From NCBI RefSeq assembly GCF_028688795.1, contig NZ_JAQTXM010000008.1, positions 62,001-126,000 on the forward strand: 64,000 nucleotides of DNA, written 5' to 3'. The notes under the pieces were generated by a model. That model worked only from the letters and a program-made list of their open reading frames with translations, ran no database searches and was not told the DNA's origin. The stretch is from Rhodoferax sp. (lineage in GTDB: Bacteria > Pseudomonadota > Gammaproteobacteria > Burkholderiales > Burkholderiaceae_C). Both the position numbers and the translations under genes were made by a program. Of this stretch, positions 6,584 through 58,148 are shown piece after piece. Position 1 is the first letter of the stretch; every line of letters starts with the position of its first letter.

Positions 6584-8368
6584 TCAGGACACCTCATGCG
6601 CAAAATACCTGAGCACGCTGAGCATCGGGTTGGGCGCTGCCTGGCCCAGGCCGCAAATGGACGCATCACCCATCACCTGGGCCAGGTCATGCAGGGTGGC
6701 CGAGTCCCACACGGGGGCTTGCATCAGCGCTGCGGCTTTGACGGTGCCAACACGGCACGGCGTACATTGGCCACAGCTTTCATGGGCGAAGAACTGCATG
6801 GCGTTGTGTGCGGCATCGCGCGCCCGATCCAACTGGCTGAGCACCACCACAGCGGCCGAGCCAATGAAGCAGCCATGCGGCTGCAAGGTGTCAAAGTCCA
6901 GCGGCAGATGCGACAGGCTGGCGGGCAAAATGCCGCCCGATGCACCGCCCGGCAGGTAAGCGTAAAGCGTGTGGCCGGGCAACATGCCACCGCAATAGTC
7001 GTCAATCAGCTCGCGCACACTGATGCCCGCCGGCGCCTGCCAAACCCCGGGGTGTGCCACCCGGCCACTCACGCTGAAACTGCGCAAGCCGCTGCGGCCC
7101 TGGCGGCCTTGTGTGCTCAACCACTGCGGGCCTTTTTCCACGATGTCACGCACCCAGTAAAGGGTTTCAAAGTTTTGCACCAGGCTTGGACGTCCAAACA
7201 GCCCGACCTCGGCCACATACGGTGGGCGCAGGCGGGGCTGGCCACGCTTGCCTTCAATGCTCTCGATCATGGCCGACTCTTCGCCACAAATGTAGGCCCC
7301 GGCGCCGCGGCGCAGCTCAATCTGCGGCAAGGGGCACGGCGGGTCGGCTTGTAGCGCGGCCAGCTCACGCATGAGCATGGCCCGCGCCGCGTGGTATTCA
7401 TCACGCAAATAAATCACGCAGGCCTCGGTGCCCACCACCTGCGCGGCCACCAGCATGCCTTCCAGAAAGCGGTGGGGGTCGCGCTCCAGGTAGGTGCGGT
7501 CTTTGAAGGTGCCGGGCTCGCCCTCGTCAAGATTCACCGCCAGCAGGCGTGGTGCAGCTTGCTCACGCACGATGCGCCACTTGCGGCCCGTGGCAAAACC
7601 GGCGCCACCCAATCCCCGCAAACCTGCGTCTTCAACCACGCGCAGAACCTGCCCGACATCCTCTTCACCATTGACCAGCGCGGCCGCCAGTGCATAACCA
7701 CCGGCGGCACGGTAGGCTTGATAAGATACAAAATTGATAGCTTCTTGCGCTTTATTGACTTGCTCTAGAGGCTCATCTTTCTTAAAAACACCGGGAAAAT
7801 CAGCGATCTCGGACAACGCCTGTTGCACAGCGTTTTGGATCAAGGGCGCGGTCGCGTGCGGCACCGCTTGCTGGCCCACCAGCGCCGCCGGCGCCTGCTC
7901 GCAGCGCCCGATGCAAGGCGCTGGCAACACGCGCACACCATCGGCCAAACGGCCCGGCAGTTGGCGCAACAACGCATTGGCGCCGGCCATGGCGCAGCTC
8001 AAGCCGTCGCACACGCGCACAGTCACCACGGGTGCGGTCTGGTCGTCAGGCAAGATTAAAAAATGGTGGTAGAAGCTGGCCACCTCGAACACCTCGACCA
8101 TGGGCAGCTTCATCTCGGCAGCCAAGCCCACCAGGTGGCGCTCAAACAGGGCGCGGTAATGGTCGTTGAGCACATGCAGGTGCTCAATCAGAAGATCTCG
8201 CCGATGGCCGTCAGGGGGCGCGCTGCCAATCAGGCCACGGACCTCGGCCAGGGCTTGCTCGCTGGCCTGCCGACCTTTCAGGTGACCGATGCGCCGGGCA
8301 CGTTGCGCACTGGCGCGAAGCGAATCTGCTGTGGCCAGCGGCACGGACGAGTAGGTCTGTTTGGGCAT
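6584..8368 (-). CDS. fdsB: Formate dehydrogenase NADH-binding subunit, fused gamma-beta (NuoE-NuoF type)
   Basis: Diaphorase subunit of 594 aa that passes electrons from the alpha subunit to NAD+. Residues about 1-185 are a NuoE/24 kDa domain with [2Fe-2S] ligands in VCDGLSCAMAG and APCIGRCEQAP. Residues about 215-594 are a NuoF/51 kDa domain: FMN site GLGGAGFATGRKW, NADH loop GEPGTFKDRTYLERD, GAGAYICGEE, and [4Fe-4S] motif SCGQCTPCRVGT with the distant Cys in ICGLG. The linker (about residues 196-213, KDEPLEQVNKAQEAINFV) is encoded by a copy of the dispersed repeat family. In classic fds operons FdsG and FdsB are separate; here they are fused. Start is ATG at 8368. Confidence 0.93.
   Translation of the reverse strand: MPKQTYSSVPLATADSLRASAQRARRIGHLKGRQASEQALAEVRGLIGSAPPDGHRRDLLIEHLHVLNDHYRALFERHLVGLAAEMKLPMVEVFEVASFYHHFLILPDDQTAPVVTVRVCDGLSCAMAGANALLRQLPGRLADGVRVLPAPCIGRCEQAPAALVGQQAVPHATAPLIQNAVQQALSEIADFPGVFKKDEPLEQVNKAQEAINFVSYQAYRAAGGYALAAALVNGEEDVGQVLRVVEDAGLRGLGGAGFATGRKWRIVREQAAPRLLAVNLDEGEPGTFKDRTYLERDPHRFLEGMLVAAQVVGTEACVIYLRDEYHAARAMLMRELAALQADPPCPLPQIELRRGAGAYICGEESAMIESIEGKRGQPRLRPPYVAEVGLFGRPSLVQNFETLYWVRDIVEKGPQWLSTQGRQGRSGLRSFSVSGRVAHPGVWQAPAGISVRELIDDYCGGMLPGHTLYAYLPGGASGGILPASLSHLPLDFDTLQPHGCFIGSAAVVVLSQLDRARDAAHNAMQFFAHESCGQCTPCRVGTVKAAALMQAPVWDSATLHDLAQVMGDASICGLGQAAPNPMLSVLRYFAHEVS
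7727..7780 (+). repeat. Dispersed repeat copy 1 (inside fdsB)
   Basis: Reads AGCTTCTTGCGCTTTATTG, then CTCTAGAGGCTCATCTTT, close to the family pattern AGCTGCTTGCGCTT ... AGGGCTAGAGGCTGAT. It is AT-richer than the flanks and is translated in frame on the minus strand as the inter-domain linker of the fused subunit. Confidence 0.65.
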
Positions 8369-8430
8369 GGCGCAGACTTTACCAAATCCCTGCGTCTGGC
8401 CAACGCCCCACCCCGCACGTCAAACCTGAA

Positions 8431-9522
8431 TCAAGTTTCCTTGGAAATCTTGATCGATGGAAACTTCGACGAGAAGTCCTTGTTTTTCGCCGCAATCGCC
8501 AGCGCCACCTTGCGTGCCACGGCTTTGTACAGGCCCGCCACGTCACTGTCGGGGTCAGACACCACGGTTGGCTTGCCACTGTCGGCCTGCAGACGAATCT
8601 GCATGTCCAGTGGCAACGCACCGAGGTAATCCATGTTGTATTCCGTGGCCATTTTTTTACCGCCGTCAGCACCAAAAATGTGCTCAATGTGGCCACATTG
8701 GCTGCACACGTGCACGGCCATGTTCTCCACAATGCCCAAAATCGGCACACCGACTTTCTCAAACATCTTGATGCCTTTTTTGGCATCCAGCAGGGCAATG
8801 TCTTGCGGCGTGGTCACCACCACGGCGCCGGTCATGGGCACGCGCTGGCTCAGGGTGAGCTGAATGTCGCCGGTACCAGGCGGCATGTCCACGATCAAAT
8901 AGTCCAAGTCTTTCCAGTTGGTCTGGCGCAGCAACTGCTCCAGTGCCTGGGTCGCCATGGGGCCACGCCAGATCATGGCCTCATCCTGCGCCACCAAAAA
9001 ACCAATCGACATGACCTGCACGCCGTAGTTTTCCATGGGCTCCATGGTCTGGCCGTCGTCGCTTTCGGGACGACCCTCAATGCCCATCATCATTGGAATG
9101 CTTGGGCCGTAGATGTCGGCATCCAACAAACCGACGCTGGCGCCTTCTGCGGCCAGTGCCAGTGCCAGATTGACCGCCGTGGTGCTCTTGCCAACGCCGC
9201 CCTTGCCAGAGGCCACAGCCACAATGTTTTTTACCTTGGGCAGCAAGGCCACGCCACGCTGCACCGAGTGCGCGGTGATTTTGGTGGTGACGTTGACCGA
9301 CACGTTGGCCACACCCGCCACACTCTTGGCAGCGGCAATGAGTTCCTTGCGAAAGCCAGGAATCTGGCTTTTGGCAGGGTAGCCCAGCTCAACGTCAAAT
9401 GCCACGTCGTCGTCCGTGATGGTGAGGTTTTTGATGGCTTTGCTCGACACAAAGTCACGCCCGGTATTGGGATCAATGACACCCTTGAGGGCATCGATTA
9501 CGGTTTGCTCAACTACTGCCAT
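8431..9522 (-). CDS. apbC: Iron-sulfur cluster carrier protein ApbC/Mrp
   Basis: P-loop ATPase (363 aa) that binds and transfers [4Fe-4S] clusters to apoproteins. Residues about 1-85 form the MIP18/DUF59 domain (VIDALKGVIDPNTG). The deviant Walker A motif SGKGGVGKSTTAVNLA starts near residue 105. Further marks are DADIYGPSIPMMMG, the Walker B region LIVDMPPGTGD, and the cluster-binding CSQCG near residue 275. A strong ribosome-binding site (TAGGAG) lies 8 bases before the ATG. It is upstream of the Fe-S-rich formate dehydrogenase on the same strand, 62 bases apart, so readthrough and a maturation role for that enzyme are possible but not shown. Confidence 0.95.
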   Translation of the reverse strand: MAVVEQTVIDALKGVIDPNTGRDFVSSKAIKNLTITDDDVAFDVELGYPAKSQIPGFRKELIAAAKSVAGVANVSVNVTTKITAHSVQRGVALLPKVKNIVAVASGKGGVGKSTTAVNLALALAAEGASVGLLDADIYGPSIPMMMGIEGRPESDDGQTMEPMENYGVQVMSIGFLVAQDEAMIWRGPMATQALEQLLRQTNWKDLDYLIVDMPPGTGDIQLTLSQRVPMTGAVVVTTPQDIALLDAKKGIKMFEKVGVPILGIVENMAVHVCSQCGHIEHIFGADGGKKMATEYNMDYLGALPLDMQIRLQADSGKPTVVSDPDSDVAGLYKAVARKVALAIAAKNKDFSSKFPSIKISKET

Positions 9523-10969: not shown

Positions 10970-10997
10970 ATTGAAAGTGCGGCGGGAGCAACAAGCC

Positions 10998-13128: not shown

Positions 13129-14160
13129 TCAGGCGGACAACGCCACACCCGCTTGCTCCACGGTAGGCTCACGCCCCATCAGGGCCACCACGGCTTGCGG
13201 CGGGGTCAGCTGACCATCAAGCAAGGCCACCACGGCTTGCGCAATGGGCATGTCCACACCCAGATGGGCAGCACGTTGCACCACCGTGCGGGCGCTGTAC
13301 ACACCTTCCGCCACATGGCCCAGCGAGGCAATGGCCTGGGTCAGGGTTTGCCCCTGCGCCAGCGCCAGCCCCACTTGCCGGTTGCGCGACAAGTCGCCGG
13401 TGGCGGTCAGCACCAAGTCACCCAGCCCGCTCAAGCCCATGAACGTGGTGGCCTGCGCCCCCAGCGCCACGCCCAACCGGGTCATCTCGGCCAGGCCACG
13501 GGTGATCAGGGCGGCGCGCGCGTTCAGGCCAAGTTGCAGGCCGTCACACAATCCCGTGGCAATGGCCAGCACGTTTTTTACCGCGCCACCCACTTCCACA
13601 CCCACGATGTCATCGTTGGCATAGACCCGCAGCGAGGGGCTGTGAAACGCGGCCACCAGCGCCTGGCGCACAGCGTCATGCGCACTGGCCGCCACCAAAG
13701 CGGTGGGTTGGCCACGCGCCACTTCCAGCGCAAAGCTGGGACCACTGAGTACACCAGCTATTAAATCAGGAGCTATCTGCGCTTGTATTTCATGGGCTAA
13801 AAGTCCAAAAGGCTCGGAAGTTGGGGCTTCAAAGCCTTTGCACAACCAAGCCACTGGCGCCCGGCAAGTGGCCACGGCCGTGAGCATCTGGCGCAGGGCT
13901 GCCATCGGCGTGGCAATCACCACCAGATCAGCGTCTGCCACCAGCGTATCAAGGTGGGCCAAGGGCACGGCACTAAAACCCAGCGCAGGCGGCAGAACCA
14001 CACCGGCCAGGTAACGCCGGTTTTCATGCTGTACTTGCAGCAGTTGGCACTGCGCAGCTTCCCGCGCCCACAGCGTGACCGTGTGCCCGGTGGCCTGTGC
14101 GCTGGCACTTGCCGCCAGGGCTGTGCCCCAGGCCCCCGCTCCCAATACTATGATTTTCAT
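13129..14160 (-). CDS. gpsA: Glycerol-3-phosphate dehydrogenase [NAD(P)+]
   Basis: Reduces dihydroxyacetone phosphate to sn-glycerol 3-phosphate for phospholipid synthesis (343 aa). The N-terminal nucleotide-binding fold [11 protein letters not shown], the catalytic-domain segment [19 protein letters not shown], the [20 protein letters not shown] motif and [20 protein letters not shown] are all present. Last gene of the conserved rhodanese-grxC-secB-gpsA block. Codons for about residues 116-134 ([18 protein letters not shown]) fall in a dispersed-repeat copy and are visibly more AT-rich than the neighbours, yet keep the expected protein sequence. Confidence 0.96.
13757..13812 (+). repeat. Dispersed repeat copy 2 (inside gpsA)
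   Basis: Reads GCTATTAAATCAGGAGCTAT, CTGCGCTTGTATTTCATGGG and CTAAAAGTCCAAAAGGC in succession, matching the family layout with an extra AT-rich left arm. It is in frame on the coding strand of gpsA. Confidence 0.55.
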
Positions 14161-14210
14161 AGTTACATACGCGATATAAATAAGGGCCAGAGCACTAAAA
14201 GGCTAAATTT

Positions 14211-22326: not shown

Positions 22327-22378
22327 ATTAGGTCATAGCCCTTATGTTTACTGGGCTATTAACTATTGATTTAATAGC
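22327..22378. repeat. Dispersed repeat copy 3 (folE-clsB spacer)
   Basis: Contains GGTCATAGCCCTTATG and GCTATTGATTTAATAGC-like arms (CTATTGATTTAATAGC at 22363-22378). It fills most of the spacer between the clsB stop and folE. TAGCCC/GGGCTA within it can form a hairpin. Confidence 0.5.
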
Positions 22379-23576
22379 GCTTACCTATCAGAAACAAAAG
22401 TGTCCGCATCACAAGGTAGGCCGTTGCGTCAAACATGCGCTGACGCAGGCTACGCATGGCATGTTCACTGGCGTCCACCAGGCGCGCATCAACGCTGATG
22501 GCGTGCTCCAAACGCTGCTGCAATTCTTTCGCAAACGGTGCATCTTGCACCACCACATTGGCCTCGCGAGCAAGCAACAAACTCAAGGGGTCAATGTTGG
22601 ATGAACCCACGGTGGCCCAGCTCCCGTCCACAACAGCGACTTTGGCGTGCAAAAAACTCGGCACGTATTCGTAAATTTCAATGCCTGCGGCCAGTAACGG
22701 TGCATACAACGCGTTGGCCGCGTGGTATTGCATGAAATACTCGTAGCGCCCTTGCAGCAGCAAACGCACCCGCACACCACGTTTGGCCGCATGAATGAGA
22801 CTTTGACGAATTTTTCGGCCTGGCAAGAAGTAGGCATTGGCGACAATGATGTCTCGCCGCGCCTCACCCAAGGCCTGCCGGTAGGCACGTTCGATGGCGC
22901 TGCGAAAACGCAGGTTGTCCCGCAACACGAGTTCAGCCATTGCGCCCCCGGCGGCCCCAGCAACTGGCATGGCTTGGCGCTTTGCCTCAACAGCACGCTG
23001 CAGATCATGCCAGGCGCCCACCCAGTCCACCTGCTTGGCACGCTGAGCCGCCCGCATGCGCCACCAAAACTGACTCATAGCCAGGTGCGTGGACTGCACC
23101 AATGGGCCAGTCACACTCACCATAAAATCAAAACGCGGTGCAGCCAGTGCGCCATAGTTTGGGTCAAACCAGTCATCCAGCACATTGATGCCGCCACAGA
23201 AAGCCACCTGGCCATCGACCACGCAGAGCTTGCGATGCAAGCGTCGCCAGCGACTGGGCACCAGCAAACCCAAACGCCCCAGCGGTTTGAACACGCGCCA
23301 CTGCACACCCGCCGCAGCGAATCGCTGCGGCCACGGCGCAGGCAATTCAGCTGTGCCAATACCGTCCACAGCAACATACACCGCCACCCCACGCATCGCG
23401 GCACGCTCCAAAGCCAGCGCAACTTGCTCACCGCTGCCCTGCGGGTTGAAAATGTAGGTTTCCAGCCGAACCTCATGCAAGCTGGCATCCAGCGCCGCCA
23501 CCAAGGATGTAAAAAAGGCCTCAGATCCTTGCAGCAGCTGCAACTGATGACCGCTTTGGCGCTGTGACTTCACCAA
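22371..23576 (-). CDS. clsB: Cardiolipin synthase B, phospholipase D family
   Basis: 401-aa enzyme of the phospholipase D superfamily making cardiolipin at the inner membrane. Both HKD motifs are present: HRKLCVVDGQVAFCGGINV (about residue 115) and HAKVAVVDGSWATVGSSNID (about residue 305). It follows the endonuclease/exonuclease/phosphatase gene by 4 bases, the same pairing as ybhP-clsB(ybhO) in E. coli. The start is a TTG (23576) or the adjacent GTG (23573); neither has a clear ribosome-binding site, so translation may be coupled to the upstream gene. The C-terminal residues overlap a dispersed repeat. Confidence 0.93.
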   Translation of the reverse strand: MVKSQRQSGHQLQLLQGSEAFFTSLVAALDASLHEVRLETYIFNPQGSGEQVALALERAAMRGVAVYVAVDGIGTAELPAPWPQRFAAAGVQWRVFKPLGRLGLLVPSRWRRLHRKLCVVDGQVAFCGGINVLDDWFDPNYGALAAPRFDFMVSVTGPLVQSTHLAMSQFWWRMRAAQRAKQVDWVGAWHDLQRAVEAKRQAMPVAGAAGGAMAELVLRDNLRFRSAIERAYRQALGEARRDIIVANAYFLPGRKIRQSLIHAAKRGVRVRLLLQGRYEYFMQYHAANALYAPLLAAGIEIYEYVPSFLHAKVAVVDGSWATVGSSNIDPLSLLLAREANVVVQDAPFAKELQQRLEHAISVDARLVDASEHAMRSLRQRMFDATAYLVMRTLLFLIGKRY

Positions 23577-25524: not shown

Positions 25525-25568
25525 AAAGAGCGCCTATCAGACTAGCAGTTCCAATAAGGAGTTGCTAA
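25525..25568. repeat. Left copy of 44-bp inverted repeat around the HEPN/MNT module
   Basis: Reads AAAGAGCGC, CTATCAGACTAGCAG, TTCCAATAAGGAGTTG, CTAA in order. The reverse complement of 26941-26984 aligns with it over the whole length with one gap and about seven mismatches. Within this copy TAGCAGTTCC and GGAGTTGCTA can pair as a 10-bp stem with two G-T wobbles. Confidence 0.7.
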
Positions 25569-25663: not shown

Positions 25664-26116
25664 TTAGGCATTAGTTGTCGGCTCATTACCTGTGAGGGAT
25701 TTGGCTTGAGGCAGATACTTTTCGAGGATAGAAACCATGGTCAGGGCCTCCGCCTTTGACACAGGAGGGAATGGCGAAGAATAGGACGTGCCGTTTCGAC
25801 GCTCGTGCGCCCTTGTTATAAACGCGAATTCTTTGGTATCGACCTTCAGGTCCGTAGACACGCGCTGGATAGCTAGGTTGCGGCCTGCGTCTTTGGTGCG
25901 GACTTCGAAGAACTCAAGCACCGCCTGAACAACCTGGAAGTAGCCTTCATAGGCCATTGTGAACACCTGTAAGTGCTTTGCCTGGTCAAGCGCCTTTGCC
26001 GCAGCGAGATAGTCGGCTGCGTTCCGCAGAAAGCCGTCCACTGCGCCTGTCGTCGGTGCTACCGCCTCAAAGGCTTTGCTCTTTATGAGGTTGTCGTATT
26101 CATTCGGTCTGGACAT
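25664..26116 (-). CDS. HEPN-domain protein of a HEPN/MNT pair
   Basis: 150-aa mostly helical protein, downstream of and overlapping (17 bases) the nucleotidyltransferase gene. The helical core AADYLAAAKALDQAKHLQVF, then AYEGYFQVVQAVLEFFEV, fits a HEPN fold. The usual RNase motif RX4-6H is not clear; instead the matching loop reads RAHERRNGTSYSS (RNxxxY form), seen in some HEPN subgroups. In HEPN/MNT toxin-antitoxin systems HEPN is the toxin and the nucleotidyltransferase neutralises it. Toxicity here is therefore inferred and the active site is atypical. The tail after residue 125 is conserved-looking (SKAEALTMVSILEKYLP). Confidence 0.7.
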   Translation of the reverse strand: MSRPNEYDNLIKSKAFEAVAPTTGAVDGFLRNAADYLAAAKALDQAKHLQVFTMAYEGYFQVVQAVLEFFEVRTKDAGRNLAIQRVSTDLKVDTKEFAFITRAHERRNGTSYSSPFPPVSKAEALTMVSILEKYLPQAKSLTGNEPTTNA

Positions 26117-26675
26117 GGGGAAGTATCCTTATTTTTGGCCCATTGGCAATCTGAGCAACCACGGGGTCCGACTGCAGGAGGGTCGCCCATTCTGCAGGCT
26201 CGTACAAACTAAAGTGAATCGGCCTGCCCAGACCTTGCTCGACTTTGTGCATTACCTCTGTCATCTCCAGGAGCGAAGCGGTTCCTACGACAATCAAGTC
26301 AACGTCACTTTTTCCCGTGTCAGTCCCTTTCACGACCGACCCGAACAAGAAAGCTTCTGTTACTTGCGGAGAAAATGAGGCGAGCGCTTCTTTGAGAGGT
26401 TCCGCCAGTGCAAATGACTTGCGAGCGATACTTGCGAGCTCTGAGTAAAGAATGAAAGAAGTGTTTGCGCGAATACTTCGTTGACGCCCTCGCCGCGGTT
26501 CATCTTGGAGAACCCCCGCGTCCACGAGACGGTCAATCTGCAGTTGCGTGTTACCGCGTCCGCTCGAGGCAACGCGCAACAATTCTTGAAGCGTGAACGA
26601 GCGCTCTGGGTGAAGTAAGGTGGCGCCCAACACCTTTTGGACGCTAGGCGTAAACAAGAAACTGGCAATGCTCAC
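26100..26675 (-). CDS. Winged-HTH / minimal nucleotidyltransferase (MNT) fusion
   Basis: 191-aa protein. Residues about 1-75 form a winged helix-turn-helix (VQKVLGATLLHPERSFTLQE, then [20 protein letters not shown]). Residues about 95-185 form a minimal nucleotidyltransferase with the GSX10DXD motif intact: GSVVKGTDTGKSDVDLIVVG. It is probably both antitoxin (nucleotidyl transfer to the HEPN partner) and repressor of its own promoter, which contains repeated TGTGGA/TCCACA blocks. It starts with GTG. The fused DNA-binding domain is the notable feature; many MNT antitoxins are a single domain. Confidence 0.82.
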   Translation of the reverse strand: MSIASFLFTPSVQKVLGATLLHPERSFTLQELLRVASSGRGNTQLQIDRLVDAGVLQDEPRRGRQRSIRANTSFILYSELASIARKSFALAEPLKEALASFSPQVTEAFLFGSVVKGTDTGKSDVDLIVVGTASLLEMTEVMHKVEQGLGRPIHFSLYEPAEWATLLQSDPVVAQIANGPKIRILPHVQTE

Positions 26676-26940: not shown

Positions 26941-26984
26941 TTACCAACTCCTTATTGGAACGGCTAGCCTATCAGAGCGCTCTT
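26941..26984. repeat. Right copy of 44-bp inverted repeat around the HEPN/MNT module
   Basis: Reads TTACCAACTCCTTATTGGAA, CGGCTAGCCTATCAGAGCGC, TCTTT, the inverted counterpart of 25525-25568. It sits 30 bases from the aspS stop codon and contains the palindrome AGAGCGCTCT. The two copies enclose the HEPN/MNT pair and its operator. Confidence 0.7.
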
Positions 26985-34310: not shown

Positions 34311-37300
34311 TCAAACCAGCACGCGCTCAATGCCGCCGTCGTTGGCGACTTTGACGTAATCCGGCATCCACTGCTCGCCCAAAATCTGGCGGGCCATTTC
34401 CACCACAATGTAATCGGCTTCCAGCAATCCGTTCTGCAGGTCTTCGCCGAACCGGCTCAAGCCCTGCAAACAGGCGGGGCAAGAGGTCAGTATCTTCAGG
34501 TTATCTTTGGCACCCACACCAGGTTTCTGGCGCAACTGCGCCTCACCCTTGAGGATTTCTTCTTCCTTGCGAAAACGCACCTGGGTCGACACATCTGGGC
34601 GGTTCAAGGCCAGCGTGCCTGACTCACCGCAGCATCGGTCCGACTGAATCACGTTATCGCCCAGCAAGGCTTTCACAGTCTTGATGGGTTCTTGCAACTT
34701 CATCGGGCTATGGCATGGATCGTGGAACAAAAATGCCCCGGCATTGGCCAGTGTGATGCCTTTTTCCAGCAGGTACTCATGGATGTCGATGATGCGGCAA
34801 CCTGGGAAAATTTTCTCAAACTCGTAGCCTTGCAACTGGTCATAACAGGTGCCGCAGCTCACCACCACGGTCTTGATGTCAAGGTAGTTCAGTGTGTTGG
34901 CCACCCGGTGAAACAGCACCCGGTTGTCAGTGATCATCTTCTCGGCTTTGTCGAACTGGCCAGCGCCACGCTGCGGGTAACCACAGCACAAATAGCCCGG
35001 CGGCAGCACGGTTTGCACTCCGGCGTGCCACAACATCGCCTGGGTCGCCAAACCCACTTGACTGAACAGGCGCTCCGAGCCACAACCGGGAAAGTAAAAC
35101 ACCGCTTCGGTCTCGGCCGTGGTGGTCTTGGGGTTACGAATGATCGGCACGTAGTCTTTGTCTTCAATGTCGAGCAAGGCGCGTGCTGTTTTCTTAGGCA
35201 AGCCGCCAGGCAGCTTCTTGTTAATGAAGTGAATCACTTGCTCTTTGATGGGCGCCGTGCCCAAGGACGCCGGTGGTGCCTTGGTTTGCTTGCGCGCAAT
35301 GACTTTCAGCACATCGGCGGCCAAGCGTTGCGACTTGATGGCCAGGTTCACCATCACCGAACGCGCGATTTTGATGGTCTCAGGGTTGGTGGCATTGAGC
35401 AAGAACATGGCCGCAGCGCCCGCCGGTCTGAACGTTTTTTTGCCCATTTTGCGCAACAGGTTGCGCATGTTCATTGACACATCGCCAAAATCGATGTTGA
35501 CCGGGCACGGGCTCAGGCACTTGTGACACACGGTGCAATGGTCGGCGACGTCTTCAAACTCCTGCCAGTGTTTGATCGACACTCCGCGACGGGTTTGCTC
35601 TTCATACAAAAAGGCTTCTACCAACAGCGAAGTGGCCAGAATCTTGTTGCGCGGGCTGTACAACAAATTGGCGCGCGGCACGTGGGTGCTGCACACTGGT
35701 TTGCACTTGCCGCAACGCAGGCAGTCTTTCACACTGTCGGCAATGGCGCCAATGTCCGACTGCTGCATGATCAGCGATTCGTGCCCCATCAGACCAAAAC
35801 TGGGGGTATAGGCGTTGGTCAGGTCGGCATATATAGCATCAGGCTCTAGCCCTTTATTTATATTCGAAGACAGCTCTTTATTTCGCAGCAACTTGCCTTT
35901 GTTAAATCGCCCTTCCGGGTCAACCCTGGCTTTGTAATCGGTGAATGGCTGCAACTCGGCATCGCTCAAAAATTCCAGCTTGGTGATGCCAATGCCGTGC
36001 TCGCCCGAGATCACACCGTCCAGTGCACGCGCCAGCGCCATGATGCGTTTGACCGCGCCATGGGCTGCTTGCAACATGTCGTAGTCGTCGCTGTTGACGG
36101 GAATATTGGTGTGCACATTGCCGTCACCCGCGTGCATGTGCAAGGCCACCCAAACACGGCCTTTGAGCACGCGCTGGTGAATGGCGTTGCATTCTTTCAA
36201 TATCGGCTCAAACGCCACGCCGCTGAATATTTGCTGCAACGGCTGGCGAATCTGCGTTTTCCAGCTGGCGCGCAAGGAATGGTCTTGCAACTGGGTAAAG
36301 AGGGGTGCCACTTCCTGCAGCCACCCGGCCCACAGCGCACGCACATTGGCCAGCAGGTCCAACGCCTGCGCCACACGGTCTTCCAACAACTCGGCGGCCG
36401 AAATCTCGCCAGCGTCGTCTTGCCGACCCAGCGGCAGATTGCCCTGGCTAAAAAAGTCTTGCAGTGCGTCACACAGGGCCAGCTTATTTGCCAGGCTCAG
36501 TTCGATGTTGATGCGCTCGATACCGTCGGTGTACTCGGCCATGCGCGGCAGCGGAATCACCACGTCTTCGTTAATTTTGAACGCGTTGGTGTGTTTGCTG
36601 ATGGCGGCGGTGCGCTTGCGGTCAAGCCAGAATTTCTTGCGGGCTTCTGGGCTGATGGCAATAAAACCCTCGCCGCTGCGTGAGTTAGCAATGCGCACCA
36701 CCTCGCTCGTGACACGCGCCACGTCGTCTGCATTTTCACCGGCGATGTCGCCAAACAGCACCATTTTGGGAACGCCGCCGCCGCTCAAGGCAGCGCCGCG
36801 TTTGCTCTTGGTGGCGTAGCCCACGGCTTTTAGGTAGCGGTCATCCAGATGCTCCAACCCGGCCAGCACCACACCCGAGCGTTTTTGCTCGGCGAACATG
36901 AAGTCCTTGATTTCCACAATGCTGGGCACCGCATCCTTGGCGTTGCCAAAAAACTCCAGGCACACCGTGCGCGTGTGCGCAGGCATTTTGTGCACCACCC
37001 AGCGCGCGCTGGTGATCAAGCCGTCGCAGCCTTCTTTCTGAATGCCGGGCAAGCCGCTCAAAAATTTGTCGGTCACGTCCTTGCCCAGGCCTTCCTTGCG
37101 AAAGGTCTTGCCGGGAATGTCCAACCGCTCGGTTCGAATGGGTGTTTTGCCGTCGGCTTTGAAATATTGAAGCTCGAAACTGGCCACCTCCACGTCATGG
37201 ATCTTGCCCATGTTGTGGTTGATGCGTGTCACCTCCAGCCATTCGGCCTGCGGTGTCACCATGCGCCAGCTCGCCAGGTTGTCCAGCGCCGTGCCCCACA

Positions 37301-38234
37301 ACACGGCTTTTTTGCCGCCGGCATTCATGGCAATATTGCCGCCGATGCAAGAGGCTTCGGCAGAAGTCGGGTCCACCGCAAAGACAAAACCGGCACGCTC
37401 AGCGGCGTGTGCCACACGGTTCGTTACCACGCCAGCCTCACTCCAGACCGTGCCTACCTCATGGTCCAGGCCCGGCAACTTGAGCATCTCGACCTCGGTC
37501 ATGGCCTCAAGCTTTTCGGTGTTGATGACCACGCTCTTCCACGTCAGCGGAATCGCGCCACCGGTGTAACCCGTGCCGCCGCCACGCGGGATGATGGTCA
37601 GACCCAGCTCAATACAGCCTTTGACCAGATGCGCCATCTCGGCCTCGGTATCGGGCGTGAGCACCACAAACGGGTATTCCACGCGCCAGTCAGTAGCATC
37701 CGTCACATGGCTGACGCGGCTCAGGCCGTCAAACTTGATGTTGTCTTTGGCCGTGAGCTTGGCCAGCACCTTTTGCGCCTTGCGCCGCAACATGGCGGTT
37801 TCTACGAAATGCGCATCAAACGTCTGCACAGCCTTGCCCGCCGCTGCCAGCAACTGCCCCACCAGAGCATCACGTTCAGGGTCGGTTTCGGGCGTGCGGC
37901 GCTTTTGCACCTCGCTCAGGCGGTGCTGCAAGGCTTCCACCAGCAACACCCGGCGTTTCGGGTTGTCCAGCAAGTCGTCTTGCAGGTAGGGGTTGCGTTG
38001 CACCACCCAGATGTCACCCAGCACCTCATACAACATGCGCGCCGAGCGGCCAGTGCGGCGCTCATCACGCAGTTTGTTCAGCCAGTCCCAGGCCGTTGCA
38101 CCGAGCAGGCGAATAACGATTTCGCGGTCAGAAAAAGAGGTGTAGTTGTAAGGAATTTCGCGAATGCGTTCCTGTCCGTGCGGCGCAACAGCGCCAGCAG
38201 GCAACAAAGACTTGAGCGGTATTGGGGCGTTCAT
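34311..38234 (-). CDS. DUF3683 FAD/FMN-containing dehydrogenase with Fe-S and CCG domains
   Basis: Very large (1307 aa) oxidoreductase. In order: DUF3683 N-domain (about 15-130), FAD-binding 4 domain ([36 protein letters not shown]), FAD-linked oxidase C domain with [16 protein letters not shown], a dicluster ferredoxin ([15 protein letters not shown] and [15 protein letters not shown]), and CCG domains ([37 protein letters not shown]). This resembles GlcD/GlcF or D-lactate dehydrogenase fused in one chain; likely a membrane-associated quinone-linked 2-hydroxyacid dehydrogenase, substrate unknown. About residues 785-802 come from a dispersed repeat. ATG 38234 ([12 protein letters not shown]) is preferred over the longer frame to 38387. 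Confidence 0.9.
35829..35877. repeat. Dispersed repeat copy 4 (inside the DUF3683 gene)
   Basis: Contains ATCAGGCTCTAGCCCTTTAT, TTATATTCGAAGACAGCTC, clearly the reverse-orientation family pattern with a diverged centre. It is translated as [17 protein letters not shown] between the flavin and Fe-S parts. Confidence 0.6.
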
Positions 38235-38420
38235 CGGGTATTTTATTGCAGCCTTTATGGGCATTTGAGTGGGCGTTTGAGCCCTGTCATAGGCACGCCC
38301 AAGCTGGGCTGGCAATGTTACCGCAGTGCAACATTGCCCTACTCGGGTGATGGTGACCCTGTGGAAACCCTGATGCACACGCCGCAAGAATCCGCGTTTA
38401 ATTGTGGTCTGGGTTGGCTA

Positions 38421-44192: not shown

Positions 44193-44468
44193 TCAGCGCC
44201 AGCCTTTGAGCATGACCCATTGGCTGGTGGCAATCAACACCACCAACGCCATATAGGTGAGCATCTTCCCATCTCGTCCAAACAGCGCCAACCCAATCAA
44301 CAGCGCCACCACACCCAATGCAAAATGTATAGCTGCCTGCGCAATATATGTATGAGCTACAGGCCGTTTTTTCATAAATAAACGGCTCAGGACCGGCACC
44401 AACAAGGCAAGCCAGGCAGCTGGCGCCAAAAAGTTGATGGCATGGTTAAGCAACGCAAGAAAACCCAT
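44193..44468 (-). CDS. Small hypothetical membrane protein
   Basis: 91 aa with three hydrophobic segments (INFLAPAAWLALLVPVLSRL, IAQAAIHFALGVVALLIGLA, LTYMALVVLIATSQWVMLK). I do not recognise a named family. The middle (about residues 30-47, KKRPVAHTYIAQAAIH) is encoded by a dispersed-repeat copy, so part of the protein derives from the repeat. It starts with ATG at 44468, 71 bases before the divergent hemA. Confidence 0.65.
   Translation of the reverse strand: MGFLALLNHAINFLAPAAWLALLVPVLSRLFMKKRPVAHTYIAQAAIHFALGVVALLIGLALFGRDGKMLTYMALVVLIATSQWVMLKGWR
44326..44376 (+). repeat. Dispersed repeat copy 5 (inside the small membrane protein gene)
   Basis: Reads ATGTATAGCTGCCTGCGCAA, TATATGTATGAGCTACAGGC, CGTTTTTTC. 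The core AGCTGCxTGCGC ... GAGCTACAGGCC fits the family pattern. Confidence 0.6.
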
Positions 44469-47076: not shown

Positions 47077-47152
47077 GTTCAATGAACGGCATCAAACACC
47101 AGTTCAGTGCTTTCAATGCGTGCGTTTGACGCGCCCTTTGAAATATATGGAA

Positions 47153-47206
47153 AAATGACCCCTAGCCCATATAAATAATGCGTAAGCAGCTATTTATTAG
47201 ATAGCA
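47153..47206. repeat. Dispersed repeat copy 6 (upstream of prmC)
   Basis: Reads AAATGACCCCTAGCCCATAT, AAATAATGCGTAAGCAGCTA, TTTATTAGATAGC. It fills the space directly before the prmC start codon, where the ribosome-binding site should be. Confidence 0.65.
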
Positions 47207-47209
47207 TTT

Positions 47210-48396: not shown

Positions 48397-48406
48397 GCCA
48401 CCCATT

Positions 48407-48475
48407 AAATTTATAACAAATTAGCCTCTAGCCCTTTGGATAAAAGCGCAAGCAGCTATGTTTTAAATAGCAATT
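48407..48475. repeat. Dispersed repeat copy 7 (slyX-grxD spacer)
   Basis: The best-preserved copy: AAATTAGCCTCTAGCCCTTT, GGATAAAAGCGCAAGCAGCT, ATGTTTTAAATAGCAA. It is non-coding. Confidence 0.75.
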
Positions 48476-49020: not shown

Positions 49021-51213
49021 ATGTCACGCCAACTCTTCGTCACCACCGCCCTGCCCTACGCCAATGGCAATTTTCACATTGGTCACATCATGGAATACAT
49101 CCAGGCCGACATCTGGGTGCGCTACCAAAAGATGATGGGCAACGCGGTGGATTTTGTCTGTGCCGACGACACCCACGGCGCGCCGATCATGATTGCAGCC
49201 GAGAAAGCCGGCATCACGCCGCAGCAGTTTGTGGCCAACATTGCGGCTGGCCGCAAGCCCTACCTGGACGGCTTTCACATTGGGTTCGATAACTGGCACA
49301 GCACCGACGCCCCGGAAAACCATGAACTGGCGCGCCAGATCTACCGTGACCTGCGCGACAACAAGGATGGCTCGCTGATCGAGACCCGCACCATCGAGCA
49401 GTTTTTCGACCCGCAGAAAAACATGTTCTTGCCCGACCGTTTCATCAAGGGTGAGTGCCCCAAGTGCCATGCCAAAGACCAATATGGCGACAACTGCGAA
49501 AACTGCGGCGCGGTCTATGCCCCTACCGACCTGATCAACCCGTTCTCGGCCCTGTCAGGCGCCAAACCCGAGCTGAAAAGCTCCGAGCATTTCTTCTTCA
49601 AGCTGTCTGACCCACGTTGCGTGGCGTTTTTGGAGCAGTGGACGCAAGACGGCAAGCTGCAGCCCGAAGTAGCCAACAAGATCAAGGAATGGTTCAGCGT
49701 GCGCACCAACCCCGACGGCTCCAAGAGCGAAGGCCTGGGCGACTGGGACATCTCTAGAGACGCACCCTACTTTGGCATTGAGATTCCCGACGCACCGGGC
49801 AAATACTTTTATGTCTGGCTGGACGCCCCGATTGGTTACCTGGCCTCGTTGAAAAACCTGTTGGGAAAACGTGCTGCACTGGACCCGCAAAGCCCGGACT
49901 ACGACACCTACATGGTCAACCCCGAGCTGGAGCAATACCACTTCATCGGCAAAGACATCGTCACCTTCCACACCTTGTTCTGGCCCGCCACCCTGCATTT
50001 CAGCGGCCGCAAGACCCCCAACAACGTGTTTGTGCACGGTTTTTTGACGGTGAACAACGGCGAAAAAATGAGCAAAAGCCGCGGCACCGGGCTGGACCCG
50101 CTCAAGTACCTGAGCCTGGGCATGAACCCCGAATGGCTGCGTTACTATCTGGCCGCCAAACTCTCGGCCCGCAACGAAGACATTGACTTCAACGCCGACG
50201 ACTTCATGGCCCGCGTCAACAGTGATTTGATTGGCAAGTTTGTCAACATTGCCAGCCGTGCCGCGGGCTTTTTGACCAAGCGGTTCGACGGCAAACTGGG
50301 CGATGTGTCGGAAGACGGCGCCGCGCTCTTGCACCAGTTGCGCATTGAGCGCACCAGCATCGAACTGCTGTACGAGTCGCGTGAATACGCCAAGGCCCTG
50401 CGTGAGACCATGTTGCTGGCCGACCGCGTGAACGCCTATGTGGACGCCAACAAACCCTGGGACCTGGCCAAAAAGCCCGACCAGGAGGCCCGCCTGCAAG
50501 ACGTGTGCACGGTGTGCATCAAAGCCTTCAGAATCCTCACCTGCTACCTGAAACCGGTGCTGCCCGCGCTGGCGGCCGAGGTGGAGCAATTCCTGGCCAT
50601 TGAGCCCTTGAGCTTCACCAACATCGCCGATCCCCTGCAGACCGGCCATGTGATTGGCAACTACCAGCATTTGATGCAGCGTGTCGACGTGAAACAACTT
50701 GATGCATTGTTTGAGCCTGCAGCCCAGGGAGAACAAGCGCAAGCAGCTACAGAATCAACAGCGACCACAAAGCCGGGTGACAAAAAAGCTGCCAAAGCCG
50801 CCGCCCCGGCCACACCGATTGACCCAACTGCCCCCGGTGGTGAAGCGCTGGCCCCAACCATCAGCATCGACGACTTCGCCAAGATCGACCTGCGCATTGC
50901 CAAAATCGTGCAATGCCAGGCGGTGGCGGGTTCCACCAAGCTGCTGCAACTCACGCTGGATGTGGGTGAAGTAGACGAGGCCGGTCAGCCCAAAACGCGC
51001 AACGTGTTTTCCGGCATTGCCAGTTGCTACCAGCCCGACGACCTGACCGGCAAACTCACCGTGCTGGTGGCCAACCTGGCCCCGCGCAAGATGAAATTTG
51101 GCGTGAGTGAAGGCATGGTGCTGGCCGCCAGCCACGCCGATGAGAAGGCGCAACCCGGTATCTATGTGCTGGAGCCGTTTGCCGGCGCCCAGCCGGGCAT
51201 GCGGATTCATTGA
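49021..51213 (+). CDS. metG: Methionyl-tRNA synthetase
   Basis: Class I synthetase (730 aa). HIGH motif in [17 protein letters not shown], zinc knuckle [23 protein letters not shown] in [15 protein letters not shown]. The C-terminal tRNA-binding/dimerisation domain starts near residue 615 ([20 protein letters not shown]) and ends GMRIH. The low-complexity Ala/Thr/Lys linker (about 563-610) includes a dispersed-repeat copy ([19 protein letters not shown]). No T-box or other riboswitch is visible upstream. Confidence 0.97.
50713..50760. repeat. Dispersed repeat copy 8 (inside the metG linker)
   Basis: GAGCCTGCAGCCCAGGGAG, then AACAAGCGCAAGCAGCTACA and GAATCAACAG. The right half matches the family exactly over AAGCGCAAGCAGCTA; the left half is diverged. 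In frame in metG. Confidence 0.6.
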
Positions 51214-55040: not shown

Positions 55041-56515
55041 CAGCTACATCTTCAATAGCAAACCAAAACCCCGCAGCCAGCCCGGCGGTAGCCGCCGCCA
55101 AACACTCAACGAGTGTGGCTGAAGAGTTCATTCATGGCACGCACTGGGTGTCGCCGGCGCTGGTGAGCTTGGCGCTGGTGATGTGGTTGGCGGCCATGGG
55201 CGTTTTTCTGACGCATCCCCTGACAGAGTTACCGCTGTATTTCGCTCGGCGATACCTGGTGCTGGACGCCACCTCGCTGCTGTTCATCGTGGTCATCAAC
55301 ACCGTGTTTCTGGGCATTTGTGTGTACCTGTACTCGCGCGAGCGCCACACGCCAACGCTGGCCCGTGACATCCGCTCACGCGCCGCGCTGATGCTGCTGT
55401 TCATGGCCGTCATCAACATCGGTCTGATGGCCAACCACCTGGTGTTGCTGTGGGCGCTGATCGAGGTCAGTACCCTGTGCGCCGCGCCACTGGTGGCGCG
55501 CGGTGATGCCACCAACCCGCGCGCAGTGGCCTGGCGCTACATGCTGTACTCCGCCATGACACTGGCCATCACCTTTCTGGGCTTCATGGCACTGACCCAA
55601 TCGGCCCACTTGCGTGGTGTGGAGGTGAGTTTCATGGTGGACCGACTGGGCGAATCGCTCACCCGCGAGCCGGATGGCTGGCAGCGCCTGGGGCTATCGT
55701 TCATGCTGTTCGGGCTGGGCGGCAAACTGGGACTGGCGCCGCTGTATGGCTGGCTGCCTGAGACCTATGAGGCGGCGCCCACCACCACCAGCGCGCTGCT
55801 GGCATCCGTGCAGTTCAACGTCAGCGTGGTGGCGGTGTTTCGCATTCTTCAGATCTTTCATGGGTTTGAGGCCGGGTTTGTGTCGCAAGAACTGCTGGTC
55901 ATGGGCTACATCTCGCTGGTGGTGGCGGCGGTGCAGATCATGGCAAGCACCAACTACAAGCGCCTGATTGCCTACGCCTGCGTCAGCTCATCTGGCGTGA
56001 TTGCACTGGGACTGTCGGTGGGCAAGGCGGCGGCGTACGGCGTGGTGCTGTACATCGTGAGCAATGCGTTCGTGAAGTCGCTGCTTTTTCTCACCGCCGG
56101 GCGGATGCGCGCTGTCTATGGCACCAACGAGGTGGGGCCTTTGAGCGGTGTCATCCGCACCCTGCCGCTGGCCGGGTCGTTGTTCACCCTGGGCATTTTT
56201 GCGCTGCTGGGTTTTCCGCCGTTTGCCAGCTTTTTGGCCGAAATGTTGATCCTGTCCGGCATTGTGCAGGCCGGCAACCTGCTGGCTTTCACGCTGATGT
56301 GTGTGATGCTGACGGTGATTTTTGTCGCCACCGGGCGCACCGTGTTCCCCATGTTGTGGGGGGCGCCCAAGGTCACGGTCACGGCGCCACCGCAGTCCTG
56401 GGTCACGCTGTTGCCCAAACTGGGTTTTGTGGCCGTGCTGGTGATGCTGGGCACCTACACACCTGAACCATTGACTGACCTGCTGCGCGCCGTGGCCGTG
56501 TCGATTGGGGGTTGA
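55037..56515 (+). CDS. hyfF: Antiporter-like subunit (HyfF/NuoN type)
   Basis: 492-aa second antiporter-like subunit. Segments NHLVLLWALIEVSTLCAAPLV, GGKLGLAPLYGWLPETYEAAPT, KRLIAYACVSSSGVIALGLS and ASFLAEMLILSGIVQ are diagnostic. The N-terminal 40 residues are an unconserved soluble extension whose first codons (CAGCTACATCTTCAATAGCA) faintly resemble the dispersed repeat. The typical hyfD gene is absent from this operon. Confidence 0.9.
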   Translation: MTATSSIANQNPAASPAVAAAKHSTSVAEEFIHGTHWVSPALVSLALVMWLAAMGVFLTHPLTELPLYFARRYLVLDATSLLFIVVINTVFLGICVYLYSRERHTPTLARDIRSRAALMLLFMAVINIGLMANHLVLLWALIEVSTLCAAPLVARGDATNPRAVAWRYMLYSAMTLAITFLGFMALTQSAHLRGVEVSFMVDRLGESLTREPDGWQRLGLSFMLFGLGGKLGLAPLYGWLPETYEAAPTTTSALLASVQFNVSVVAVFRILQIFHGFEAGFVSQELLVMGYISLVVAAVQIMASTNYKRLIAYACVSSSGVIALGLSVGKAAAYGVVLYIVSNAFVKSLLFLTAGRMRAVYGTNEVGPLSGVIRTLPLAGSLFTLGIFALLGFPPFASFLAEMLILSGIVQAGNLLAFTLMCVMLTVIFVATGRTVFPMLWGAPKVTVTAPPQSWVTLLPKLGFVAVLVMLGTYTPEPLTDLLRAVAVSIGG

Positions 56516-56519
56516 GTTG

Positions 56520-58148
56520 ATGACTAACGCCGTGACCCTCGCCCTGCCCCAGAATGTGAACGCCACCCCTGCAACAAGCCTGGCGCCGCCCGCCAACCAT
56601 TTGCAGCCACTGGCGCACTGTGACCTGAGTGCGCAAGAAACGCTCTCACTTTCAGAGCTACTTACGCAAATAGCAAAAGGGCTAGAGGCTAATTTCTTAT
56701 TAATTTCTCTGTTTGGCCGCAAGGCCCTGCCTGATGAACCCCCAGGTGTGATGGTGACGGCCGTGTTGTTGCCGCCCGGTCAGGCGCTGCAGGTACTGCG
56801 CGCCTATGCCGCACCGGGGCAAAACTACCCCAGTCTGACCGCCAGTTTCCCTGCTGCGCAAATTTTCGAGCGTGAACTTTGGGAGCAAACCGGCTTGGTG
56901 CCACAAGGCCACCCTTGGCTGAAACCCGTGCGTTTTGAAGGTGCACGACAGGGACTGATGGCTGATTACCCGTTTTTCAAGGTGCGTGGGGCTGAGGTGC
57001 ATGAAGTGGGTGTCGGCCCCATCCATGCCGGCGTGATCGAGCCGGGGCACTTTCGCTTCATGTGCCATGGCGAGCAGGTGCACCATCTGGAAATTCAGCT
57101 CGGCTACCAGCACCGGGGGGTGGAAGCCCTGCTGCTGAAAAGATCGCCTGAGCGGCTCACGCCGCTGGTGGAGTCCATCGTGGGCGATTCGGTGCTGGCC
57201 TATGCCTGGGCCTTCAACAGCGCCCTGGAATATATGGCAAATCAGACTGTAGCCATCACAACCATTGCGTCACGTGCTATCGGTTTAGAGCTTGAGCGCC
57301 TCGCCATGCACTTGGGCACATTGAACGGCCTTGCCACCGACATGGCCTACCTGCAGCCCGCCGCCACCTACGGGCGGCTGCGCACCGCCATCATCAATGC
57401 CAGCCAACGCGTCTGCGGCAACCGCTTTGGCCGTGGCTGGATTCGCCCGGGTGCGGCGGCGCCGATTGGAGATGAACTGCGCCAGGACTTGCTCGCCACG
57501 CTGCGCGCGTTTCTTCCTGATTTTGTGCAGGTTAACGCCTTGATTTGCAGCAGCCGCAGCGCACAAGCCCGGCTTCGTGGCGTGGGCACGGTCAGCGCCC
57601 AAGCAGCTCGTGATTTGGGCTTGACCGGTGTGGTGGCGCGTGCCAGCGGCCTGGGGCTGGACTTGCGCCACGCGCTGGCCGGCAACCTGTATGGTCATTA
57701 CCCAGTTCAGCCAGTGCAACCGATACAACAGCCCATGCAGCCGCGCAAACCAGCGGAGCAAGCCAGTGGCGACTGCTGGGCGCGCATGAGCCAACGCATG
57801 CTGGAAGCTGAGGCCAGCACACAATGGCTAATCGACCTGCTGGCCGACACGGCGCTGAACCTCAAGGACACCCCGCCACCGTTCCCACAGCAAGGTGGGT
57901 CGGCCGGCACCGTAAGCTGGGCGCTGCAGCCAAACACGCTGTGCGTGTCACTGGTCGAAGGCGTACGTGGCCCGGTGATGGTGGCACTGGAAACCGATGC
58001 CGCAGGCCAGCTGATCCACGCCAAGGTGCAAGACCCCTCAGCCGCCAACTGGTTCGGCCTGGCGTTTTCGCTGCGCAATCAGCAAATTTCAGACTTCCCC
58101 ATTTGCAACAAGAGTTTTGACCTCTCATATTGCGGCAACGACCTGTAA
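56520..58148 (+). CDS. HycE/HyfG-like 'large subunit' lacking NiFe ligands (Ehr type)
   Basis: 542-aa protein with an N-terminal NuoC-like region (about 30-140) and a NuoD/hydrogenase large-subunit region (from HEVGVGPIHAGVIEPGHFRF). In true group 4 hydrogenases two CxxC motifs bind NiFe. Here the first site reads VESIVGDSVLAYAWAF and the end reads DFPICNKSFDLSYCGNDL; neither has CxxC. So it cannot hold a standard NiFe centre; it fits the Ehr class. Two dispersed-repeat copies lie in frame (about residues 44-62 and 240-257). ATG 56520 is preferred to an upstream TTG. A Gln/Pro-rich loop (PVQPVQPIQQPMQPRK) is unusual. Confidence 0.88.
   Translation: MTNAVTLALPQNVNATPATSLAPPANHLQPLAHCDLSAQETLSLSELLTQIAKGLEANFLLISLFGRKALPDEPPGVMVTAVLLPPGQALQVLRAYAAPGQNYPSLTASFPAAQIFERELWEQTGLVPQGHPWLKPVRFEGARQGLMADYPFFKVRGAEVHEVGVGPIHAGVIEPGHFRFMCHGEQVHHLEIQLGYQHRGVEALLLKRSPERLTPLVESIVGDSVLAYAWAFNSALEYMANQTVAITTIASRAIGLELERLAMHLGTLNGLATDMAYLQPAATYGRLRTAIINASQRVCGNRFGRGWIRPGAAAPIGDELRQDLLATLRAFLPDFVQVNALICSSRSAQARLRGVGTVSAQAARDLGLTGVVARASGLGLDLRHALAGNLYGHYPVQPVQPIQQPMQPRKPAEQASGDCWARMSQRMLEAEASTQWLIDLLADTALNLKDTPPPFPQQGGSAGTVSWALQPNTLCVSLVEGVRGPVMVALETDAAGQLIHAKVQDPSAANWFGLAFSLRNQQISDFPICNKSFDLSYCGNDL
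56652..56706 (+). repeat. Dispersed repeat copy 9 (N-terminal part of the hyfG-like gene)
   Basis: TTCAGAGCTACTTACGCAAA, TAGCAAAAGGGCTAGAGGCT, AATTTCTTATTAATT. The half AAAGGGCTAGAGGCTAATTT is nearly consensus. Translated as SELLTQIAKGLEANFLLIS. Confidence 0.75.
57241..57286. repeat. Dispersed repeat copy 10 (central part of the hyfG-like gene)
   Basis: ATCAGACTGTAGCCATCACA, ACCATTGCGTCACGTGCTAT, CGGTTT. Reverse orientation relative to copy 9, more diverged. Translated as NQTVAITTIASRAIGL. Confidence 0.5.

Follow-up and report, generated by a model that had tools for sequence, protein, structure and literature searches.

DNA uptake sequences (DUS) of Neisseriaceae are words of 10-12 bp that are read by ComP; variants of one consensus occur within the family, with copies scattered along the chromosome, and besides Neisseriaceae and Pasteurellaceae we know of no third family with such a repeated uptake word. 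Genome-wide uptake words have been described in these two families (PMC7811141, PMC4212676). The uptake signal sequences (USS) of Pasteurellaceae, which comprise Hin and Apl types, have a 9-bp core and a proven uptake preference, and are described as hundreds of copies scattered in genes and spacers, with AT-rich flanking segments and a clade-specific consensus; in a gap test they arose by substitution and not by insertion, gaps being present in 24% of 474 alignments (PMC1626085). It has been argued that mutation together with uptake bias can let such words accumulate (PMC1939737). The dispersed repeat described here was followed up from a 64,000-nucleotide stretch of a Rhodoferax sp. genome (contig NZ_JAQTXM010000008.1, positions 62,001 to 126,000; hereafter the window), in which an initial annotation had listed ten copies. 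It is a real DNA signal restricted to the family Comamonadaceae, with a behaviour closest to that of USS, and it may work like them; in place of a short core of about 9-12 bp it has information spread over two blocks, and it is therefore not filed as a USS or DUS. The best single explanation of the repeat, for which we see slightly less than an even chance, would be a signal for biased DNA uptake.

A dispersed two-block repeat

Copies from outside the window were collected with a 16-base word from the right half of the repeat, which at up to three mismatches has 351 matches genome-wide compared with 20 for the reversed pattern. The best 30 of the 351 matches were taken and 25 of them aligned to give a sequence-only model, R1. 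Among the copies taken, locus L021 (G000:C31:122123-122163) is unlike the others in that a long palindrome is made up of two right-half matches pointing towards each other, and it was excluded from R1. In the window, R1 recovered all ten reported copies, on both strands as had been claimed, together with an eleventh at 14145-14192, at E-values from 4e-19 to 2.3e-4; the lowest scores were those at 14145 (19.8 bits), 57229 (17.3 bits) and 22336 (17.0 bits). With the same alignment nhmmer detected 10 of the 11 copies at E<0.01 and missed that at 22336. In 1.28 Mb of shuffled window sequence (20 order-2 shuffles), the top score of a model from the 25-copy alignment was 6.4 bits, and the reversed sequence gave no match at E<0.01. 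Two conserved halves had been proposed; taken alone in the window, the right half greatly exceeds the chance expectation (5 matches versus 0.15 expected) and the left half does not (18 versus 12.75).

The core consists of two blocks, ATAGCTnCTtGCGC and GGGCTAGAGGC, separated by about 12 AT-rich bases and flanked by AT-rich sequence, and spans about 55-70 bp in total. Alignment of 73 copies gives the consensus TGCTATATAATTAATAGCTGCTTGCGCTTATTTTATAAGGGCTAGAGGCCAATTT, which continues at its ends into AT-rich sequence; information is distributed across 55 columns in the two blocks, and base preferences fade toward the edges of the motif. The blocks of the core come close to being inverted repeats, and weak hairpins can be folded from the consensus, but the folds of single copies differ and the 25 top-ranked column pairs among the 73 copies trace no helix, on which grounds an RNA or single-stranded DNA hairpin was rejected. 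The weak dependence between columns, together with top pairs that trace no helix, fits recognition of double-stranded DNA.

For placement, a 464-kb sample of the genome was used (400 kb plus the window), in which a model iterated and refined on the same 464 kb found 77 matches at 75 places at E<0.01, two pairs being one place matched on both strands; this corresponds to about one match per 6 kb, or an extrapolated 830 or so sites per genome. The reversed sample gave none, and the unrefined model gave 72 matches at E<1e-3. According to a crude gene finder, 50 of the 77 matches are intergenic, in about 14% of the DNA, and 27 lie in genes (12 sense, 15 antisense); the finder under-calls genes, as the window copies at 44321 and 56642 were called intergenic yet lie in open reading frames (ORFs), and C29:12334 is likewise crossed by an open frame. 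Between convergent genes, which make up 15% of spacer bases, lie 14 of the 50 intergenic matches (two of these 14 are one place on both strands), and five lie between divergent genes (21% of spacer bases). This skew and the weak hairpins of the consensus would suit a signal at the RNA level, such as a terminator or an mRNA hairpin used chiefly at 3' ends; given the occurrence of in-gene matches in both orientations, the lack of a helix among the top column pairs and the absence of any Rfam family at gathering score in the window, that alternative appears improbable.

Copy numbers in other genomes are lower bounds, as each search scored at most 18-150 candidates. In the closed genome of a repeat-rich relative (G121), the 150 scored matches are neutral in orientation (74 on the plus and 76 on the minus strand), with neither regular spacing (coefficient of variation 1.1) nor replication-arm bias, the best split being equalled by 72 of 300 permutations; the absent arm bias ruled out a replication-strand signal of the kind of Chi or the FtsK-orienting polar sequences (KOPS). 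The occurrence of similar sequences in other Comamonadaceae, mentioned in the initial annotation, was borne out by a profile scan with at least one match in 87 of 250 family genomes and 58 of 141 genera. A class-wide sample gave matches in only four of 274 genomes, two of them within the family and the other two with one weak match each. Among the matches listed, carriers include Rhodoferax, Polaromonas, Curvibacter, Variovorax, Simplicispira, Giesbergeria and Acidovorax, and the consensuses of carrier genera are related but different. An exact pattern occurred in eight stretches among 2.9 million viral contigs, and two phage-collection records were matched, an Aeromonas phage and a Salmonella record. 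Over-representation in both orientations, and restriction to a clade with variants and loss in some lineages, are thus shared with USS and DUS.

Origin of the copies within genes

The clearest evidence on how copies arise comes from gpsA, where the copy at 13757..13799 on the plus strand (R1 24.3 bits) lies in the ORF 13129-14160 of the minus strand (NAD_Gly3P_dh) and consists mostly of synonymous AT-rich codons. Alignment with orthologues from a further 29 genomes of the genus, some with the motif and some without, shows no gap inside the element, and in one of the 29 there is an additional residue a little way upstream of it; stop codons in gpsA matches were set to X for this alignment and for the tree discussed below. 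The codons with the motif read CTA GCC CAT GAA ATA CAA GCG CAA GTA GCT (L181) and those without it CTG GCC CAT GAG GTT CAG GCG CAG GTG GCG (L182). Third codon positions inside the element have a G+C content (GC3) of 0.33 where the motif is present (10 genomes) and of 0.75 where it is absent (16 genomes); outside the element the values are 0.73 and 0.74, respectively, four intermediate genomes being left out. Within the clade of the studied genome, synonymous differences amount to 0.20 inside the element and 0.46 outside, and relative to two motif-free genomes, G539 and G523, to 0.61 inside and 0.47 outside, with amino-acid changes of 0.21 and 0.20. The spacer upstream of gpsA is 50 bp with the motif here and 53 bp without it in G523 and G539. 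At the level of sequence, the orthologue comparison shows that the gpsA copy arose by substitution in existing codons and not by insertion. This segment, which keeps its length with or without the motif, weighs most clearly against insertion as a general explanation, contrary to the MITE-like or REP-like (miniature inverted-repeat transposable or repetitive extragenic palindromic) elements that had been suggested.

Across all loci examined, 141 matches of at least 25 bits lie in long open frames, a number that includes copies present in two overlapping loci, and 84 of them have a spanning homologue. Net length is unchanged in 367 of 467 pairs with a motif-free homologue, gpsA contributing 336 of the pairs and 326 of those unchanged. 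For a tally by place, the closest element-free homologue of each match at 50% identity or more was used and the matches were grouped by hand, dropping one place with a stop in the subject and the places below 50% identity. Eight of the 15 comparable places, gpsA and seven others, differ by no more than one residue, and equal-length element-free homologues include those of gpsA, the Complex I 49K-like gene (56639), C56:98213 and C97:45038. GC3 at four places other than gpsA is 0.20-0.37 inside the motif and 0.65-0.77 outside, in a hand-picked set of eight pairs at five places; the motif-free homologue at 56642 is also low in GC3 (0.42). At some places the motif costs protein sequence, for instance at C97:45038, where 10 of 20 residues are changed. 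Substitution in place fits the seven places besides gpsA, as judged from these alignments.

The outcome that the initial annotation had named as refuting, orthologous proteins with the segment in lineages without the repeat, was obtained in part: at gpsA and seven of the 14 other places the segment has equal length in genomes without the motif; at four of the 14 the repeat-bearing protein is longer, by 8-21 residues (the 21-aa difference occurring at one place), and at three it is shorter. The longer places include the metG linker at 50714 and a linker in a 2139-aa protein, and such variable linkers may reflect insertion or linker growth instead of substitution. The suggestion that copies become linkers or surface segments holds for some, such as that in metG, but not for gpsA. 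In the Complex I 49K-like paralogues of L225, L227 and L234, 8-10 residues are missing at the place of the motif in most motif-free homologues, the paralogue of the studied genome excepted (+1), and this is the best case among the loci compared for weighing insertion against linker variation. A single 6.4-kb ORF at C97:54505-60921 (loci L297-L298) has three separate in-frame places of the motif, and linker length varies among relatives at two of them.

That all seven in-gene copies of the window lie in open frames, as the initial annotation had stated (counting 44321 within a 91-aa ORF), and that in-gene copies are generally open in frame, would also be expected of a selfish palindrome inserted in the manner of the Rickettsia palindromic element, or of spread by gene conversion between copies. 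The Rickettsia element adds residues relative to element-free orthologues, which here is the case at four of the 15 places and not at the other 11; the equal lengths at gpsA, 56639, C56:98213 and C97:45038 speak against such an origin, and the low-information columns are near-random between copies (0.36 identity). We regard this alternative as improbable.

A slight chance of the same order is given to an element of the REP or MITE kind that a Y1 transposase of the REP-associated tyrosine transposase (RAYT) type would move in trans and insert both between and inside genes. The repeat has no transposase of its own, as had been observed, and the genome encodes two Y1_Tnp proteins (G000:C34, C97; loci L061, L062) with open frames of about 250 aa. 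A motif match occurs within 2.2-3.3 kb around each of them (28.6 and 13.4 bits), but such proximity to a gene means little when there is about one match per 6 kb. In the family sample Y1_Tnp is more frequent among repeat-rich genomes, and the longer motif-bearing proteins at four of the 15 places would also agree with insertion. Seven repeat-rich family genomes, however, lack Y1_Tnp at E 1e-5 (two of them only 70-74% complete), and the equal lengths at gpsA and seven other places argue against insertion. An association with RAYT-like transposases, for which the initial annotation had suggested a test, was not seen within the genus: 37 of 38 genomes have Y1_Tnp, it is present in 16 of the 17 genomes poor in repeats, and the sole genome without it is repeat-poor; the Y1 transposase was thus rejected as the driver, being associated with the repeat across the family and not within the genus. 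REP elements follow their cognate Y1 transposase and are inserted extragenic palindromes, whereas here 27 of 77 matches lie in genes, gpsA and seven other places are not insertions, and seven of 15 places differ in length. In the family as a whole Y1_Tnp occurs in 167 of 250 genomes, mostly as one copy each among those listed, as if domesticated.

Retention and loss among relatives

The repeat is mostly retained at orthologous positions in a diverged, repeat-rich relative (G121) and is missing from such positions in two repeat-poor ones. In comparisons of orthologous sites with at most six subjects per site, G121 has the motif at 12 bits or more at 12 of 12 aligned sites of the studied genome, and all eight site-genome comparisons with G523 and G539 score 0; in long alignments, DNA identity to a 20-kb stretch of the studied genome (L298) is 83% for G523 and 79% for G121. 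Where an orthologous copy was detected (13 sites), the identity of the two copies reaches 0.91 in the 20 high-information columns, 0.72 in middling columns and 0.52 in the 13 low-information columns, compared with 0.90, 0.63 and 0.36 between unrelated copies within the genome; as only pairs with both copies detected enter, these values favour consensus columns, and the contrast of G121 with G523 and G539 is the fairer one. Among the 38 genomes of the genus, with up to 132 candidates scored in each, 18 have at least 100 matches, three have 53-57 and 17 have 0-10, G523 having three and G539 six. In a gpsA tree that excludes the motif segment and covers 30 of the 38 genomes, G523 and G539 fall inside the repeat-rich clade with support of 98/95 and 100/98, so their scarcity of repeats is most simply explained by loss. 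Genome-wide loss in these two genomes would be expected if a trans-acting driver had disappeared.

The reading that we favour would accommodate these observations as follows. The repeats would not be inserted elements but sites that are recognised in double-stranded DNA, arising and persisting mainly through base substitution in pre-existing sequence, in both orientations and in spacers as well as genes, and eroding once the trans-acting driver is lost. The most likely driver would be biased DNA uptake in natural transformation, in which some receptor would read the motif; fragments with a better site would be taken up and recombined more often, so that orthologous places would drift to the consensus, as with the USS of Pasteurellaceae, whose origin by substitution in genes is matched here at gpsA and would be matched at seven of the 14 other places.

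The strongest competing explanation is a binding site for a chromosomal protein, such as a nucleoid organiser, a replication or segregation factor or a global regulator, that is kept by ordinary selection, the protein having been lost in repeat-poor lineages. Such a site would fit the in-place origin at gpsA, the orthologous retention and the on/off presence in the genus equally well, and the near inverted repeats of the core and the enrichment in spacers (50 of 77 matches in about 14% of the DNA) agree with it. However, some 830 sites of more than 50 bp are far beyond the sequence of the organiser sites known to us, and the G121 matches lack regular spacing and arm bias. We consider a protein site unlikely, if clearly less so than the insertion and RNA alternatives.

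Several observations weigh against an uptake signal. The motif is far longer than the cores of USS or DUS, with a conserved stretch of about 55-70 bp in two blocks where USS have 9 bp, and its density lies below that of either. Only 27 of the 77 matches were called in genes, by a finder that under-calls them, compared with 65% of USS, and the likeness to USS is one of sequence pattern. Outside gpsA only 41 of 131 pairs are unchanged in length, and 32 of 78 when identity is at least 50%; among the 15 places, the four with a motif-bearing protein longer by 8-21 aa are joined by three at which it is shorter by 4-14 aa, and such differences (seven of 15 places) look commoner than the gaps in USS alignments. 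Mean mutual information between columns is slightly higher than in shuffles (0.0452 versus 0.0398, standard deviation 0.0008), one G121 spacer, opposite C11:65358, is without the motif that the studied genome has there, and Y1_Tnp in the family sample was found in 55 of 62 repeat-rich genomes versus 95 of 163 without matches, 25 genomes with 1-12 matches being left out; this last association may reflect kinship. Because of the recount of lengths by pair and place, our confidence in the uptake explanation was lowered from an even chance to slightly under it.

Window copies, related repeats and significance

Apart from that in gpsA, the copies in the window are placed as follows. On the plus strand at 7724..7788 (35.7 bits with R1, as are all scores in this paragraph unless a relative is named), a copy runs antisense to the gene of a Complex I 51K-like, NAD-binding subunit (ORF 6584-8368, minus strand; Complex1_51K, 2Fe-2S_thioredx), the homologous segment of Rhodoferax locus L072 scoring 53.8 bits. 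The copy that was absent from the earlier list (14145..14192, plus strand, 19.8 bits) covers the gpsA start and the 50-bp spacer upstream. A weak copy at 22336..22381 on the minus strand (17.0 bits) lies at the edge of a PLD-domain gene (22371-23576, minus strand), and the orthologous site in G121 scores 27.2 bits. The copy at 35838..35891 (minus strand, 35.5 bits) is in frame and in sense within the gene of a 1358-aa FAD/FeS protein (34311-38387, minus strand; DUF3683, FAD_binding_4), and it has no spanning homologue among the loci compared. At 44321..44380 (plus strand, 32.2 bits) the motif is antisense in the 91-aa ORF 44193-44468 (minus strand). Two intergenic copies lie on the minus strand at 47142..47208 (42.1 bits) and 48406..48474 (64.2 bits, the top score in the window). 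The metG copy at 50714..50764 (minus strand, 25.6 bits) is antisense in a linker of variable length of methionyl-tRNA synthetase (ORF 49021-51213, plus strand; tRNA-synt_1g, tRNA_bind); it is retained in L256, and L251 is shorter by 11 aa there. The Complex I 49K-like gene (56505-58148, plus strand) has a copy in frame and in sense at 56639..56706 (plus strand, 54.7 bits), with the motif at the same place in six relatives (L211-L216) and an equal-length homologue without it in G539. A second, weak and antisense copy in this gene, at 57229..57284 on the minus strand (17.3 bits), has counterparts of 32.0, 24.0, 21.3 and 13.1 bits in L214, L212, L213 and L215, respectively, the alignments being free of net indels. 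Elsewhere in the window, 30-nt inverted repeats at 25539-25568 and 26941-26970, 90% complementary and 1.4 kb apart, flank ORFs 25664-26116 and 26100-26675, which together look like an insertion sequence.

Fragments of the family have probably been noticed before. For Polaromonas naphthalenivorans CJ2 the motif pair ATAGCT(N)22CAAAAG has been listed with 125 copies, and for Acidovorax ebreus the pair GCTTAT(N)5AAGCG with 114; both are presented without explanation, as potential novel motifs for which the part of the report that treats them gives no mechanism, and Rhodoferax ferrireducens is named as the genome with most motif pairs (PMC5217627). The copies studied here carry ATAGCT(N)22CTAGAG, at a spacing identical to that of the P. 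naphthalenivorans pair; it occurs 19 times in the sample of the studied genome, always inside motif matches, and 99 times in the named loci, a set selected with a related pattern. Of the A. ebreus word the 464 kb contain four matches at three places, all inside motif matches, compared with none for a changed-spacing control. It is the agreement of pair spacing with the core that makes earlier notice probable, and identity with the P. naphthalenivorans motif is inferred, since the loci examined yielded no instance of the CAAAAG variant. The repeats named BRE (Beta-proteobacterial repeat element), as described in PMC3110155, are likewise short, occur in Bordetella and Comamonadaceae and lie partly in genes; they are about 90 bp long, with 69% G+C in Bordetella and some in tandem, whereas the present repeat is AT-rich, and they were set apart by composition and arrangement as given in that description alone.

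The motif was also met in proteins annotated as DUF1010. On plasmid pCTX-M3 (L366:2489-2536, between dfrA12 and aadA2), the DUF1010 gene of a class 1 integron array carries it (35.6 bits), and a search of plasmid records with the consensus matched 1760 at E<=1, 16 of the 20 listed being annotated as DUF1010. The Pfam DUF1010 match starts with the translated motif (FLASSPCVASASSY) at L366:2351-2641 (minus strand), L149:4087-7612 and L159:541-681. The plasmid matches hint at an origin of the class 1 integron cassette in Comamonadaceae. In the Simplicispira locus L149, three DUF1010 ORFs lie close together, perhaps as an integron cassette array. For annotation, the start of Pfam DUF1010 and many gene segments should be read with the warning that they are translated motif.

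In Verminephrobacter, transformation is reported to depend on type IV pili and to be sequence-specific, with limited and saturating inhibition by foreign DNA, and Acidovorax temperans to be transformed by its own DNA only, a species-restricted behaviour (PMC4212676). An uptake sequence for Comamonadaceae was found neither among the papers listed in literature searches nor among the transformation results consulted in that source (PMC4212676). It is tentatively proposed that Comamonadaceae have a further, independently evolved family of uptake signals, with a long two-block motif of more than 50 bp that would be read as double-stranded DNA, written by biased uptake into conserved genes codon by codon and eroded genome-wide in lineages without the reader; the recount of lengths lowered our confidence in this wider proposal too, from just under an even chance to somewhat below that. 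The motif is a candidate for the signal behind the preferences measured in transformation of Verminephrobacter and Acidovorax, and a long-motif uptake signal, if real, would explain their sequence-specific transformation. An uptake word with so long a motif would also provide an independent test of how such signals evolve and of what reads them. With both repeat-rich and repeat-poor species, the genus constitutes a natural experiment in which the reader would be findable through gene content.

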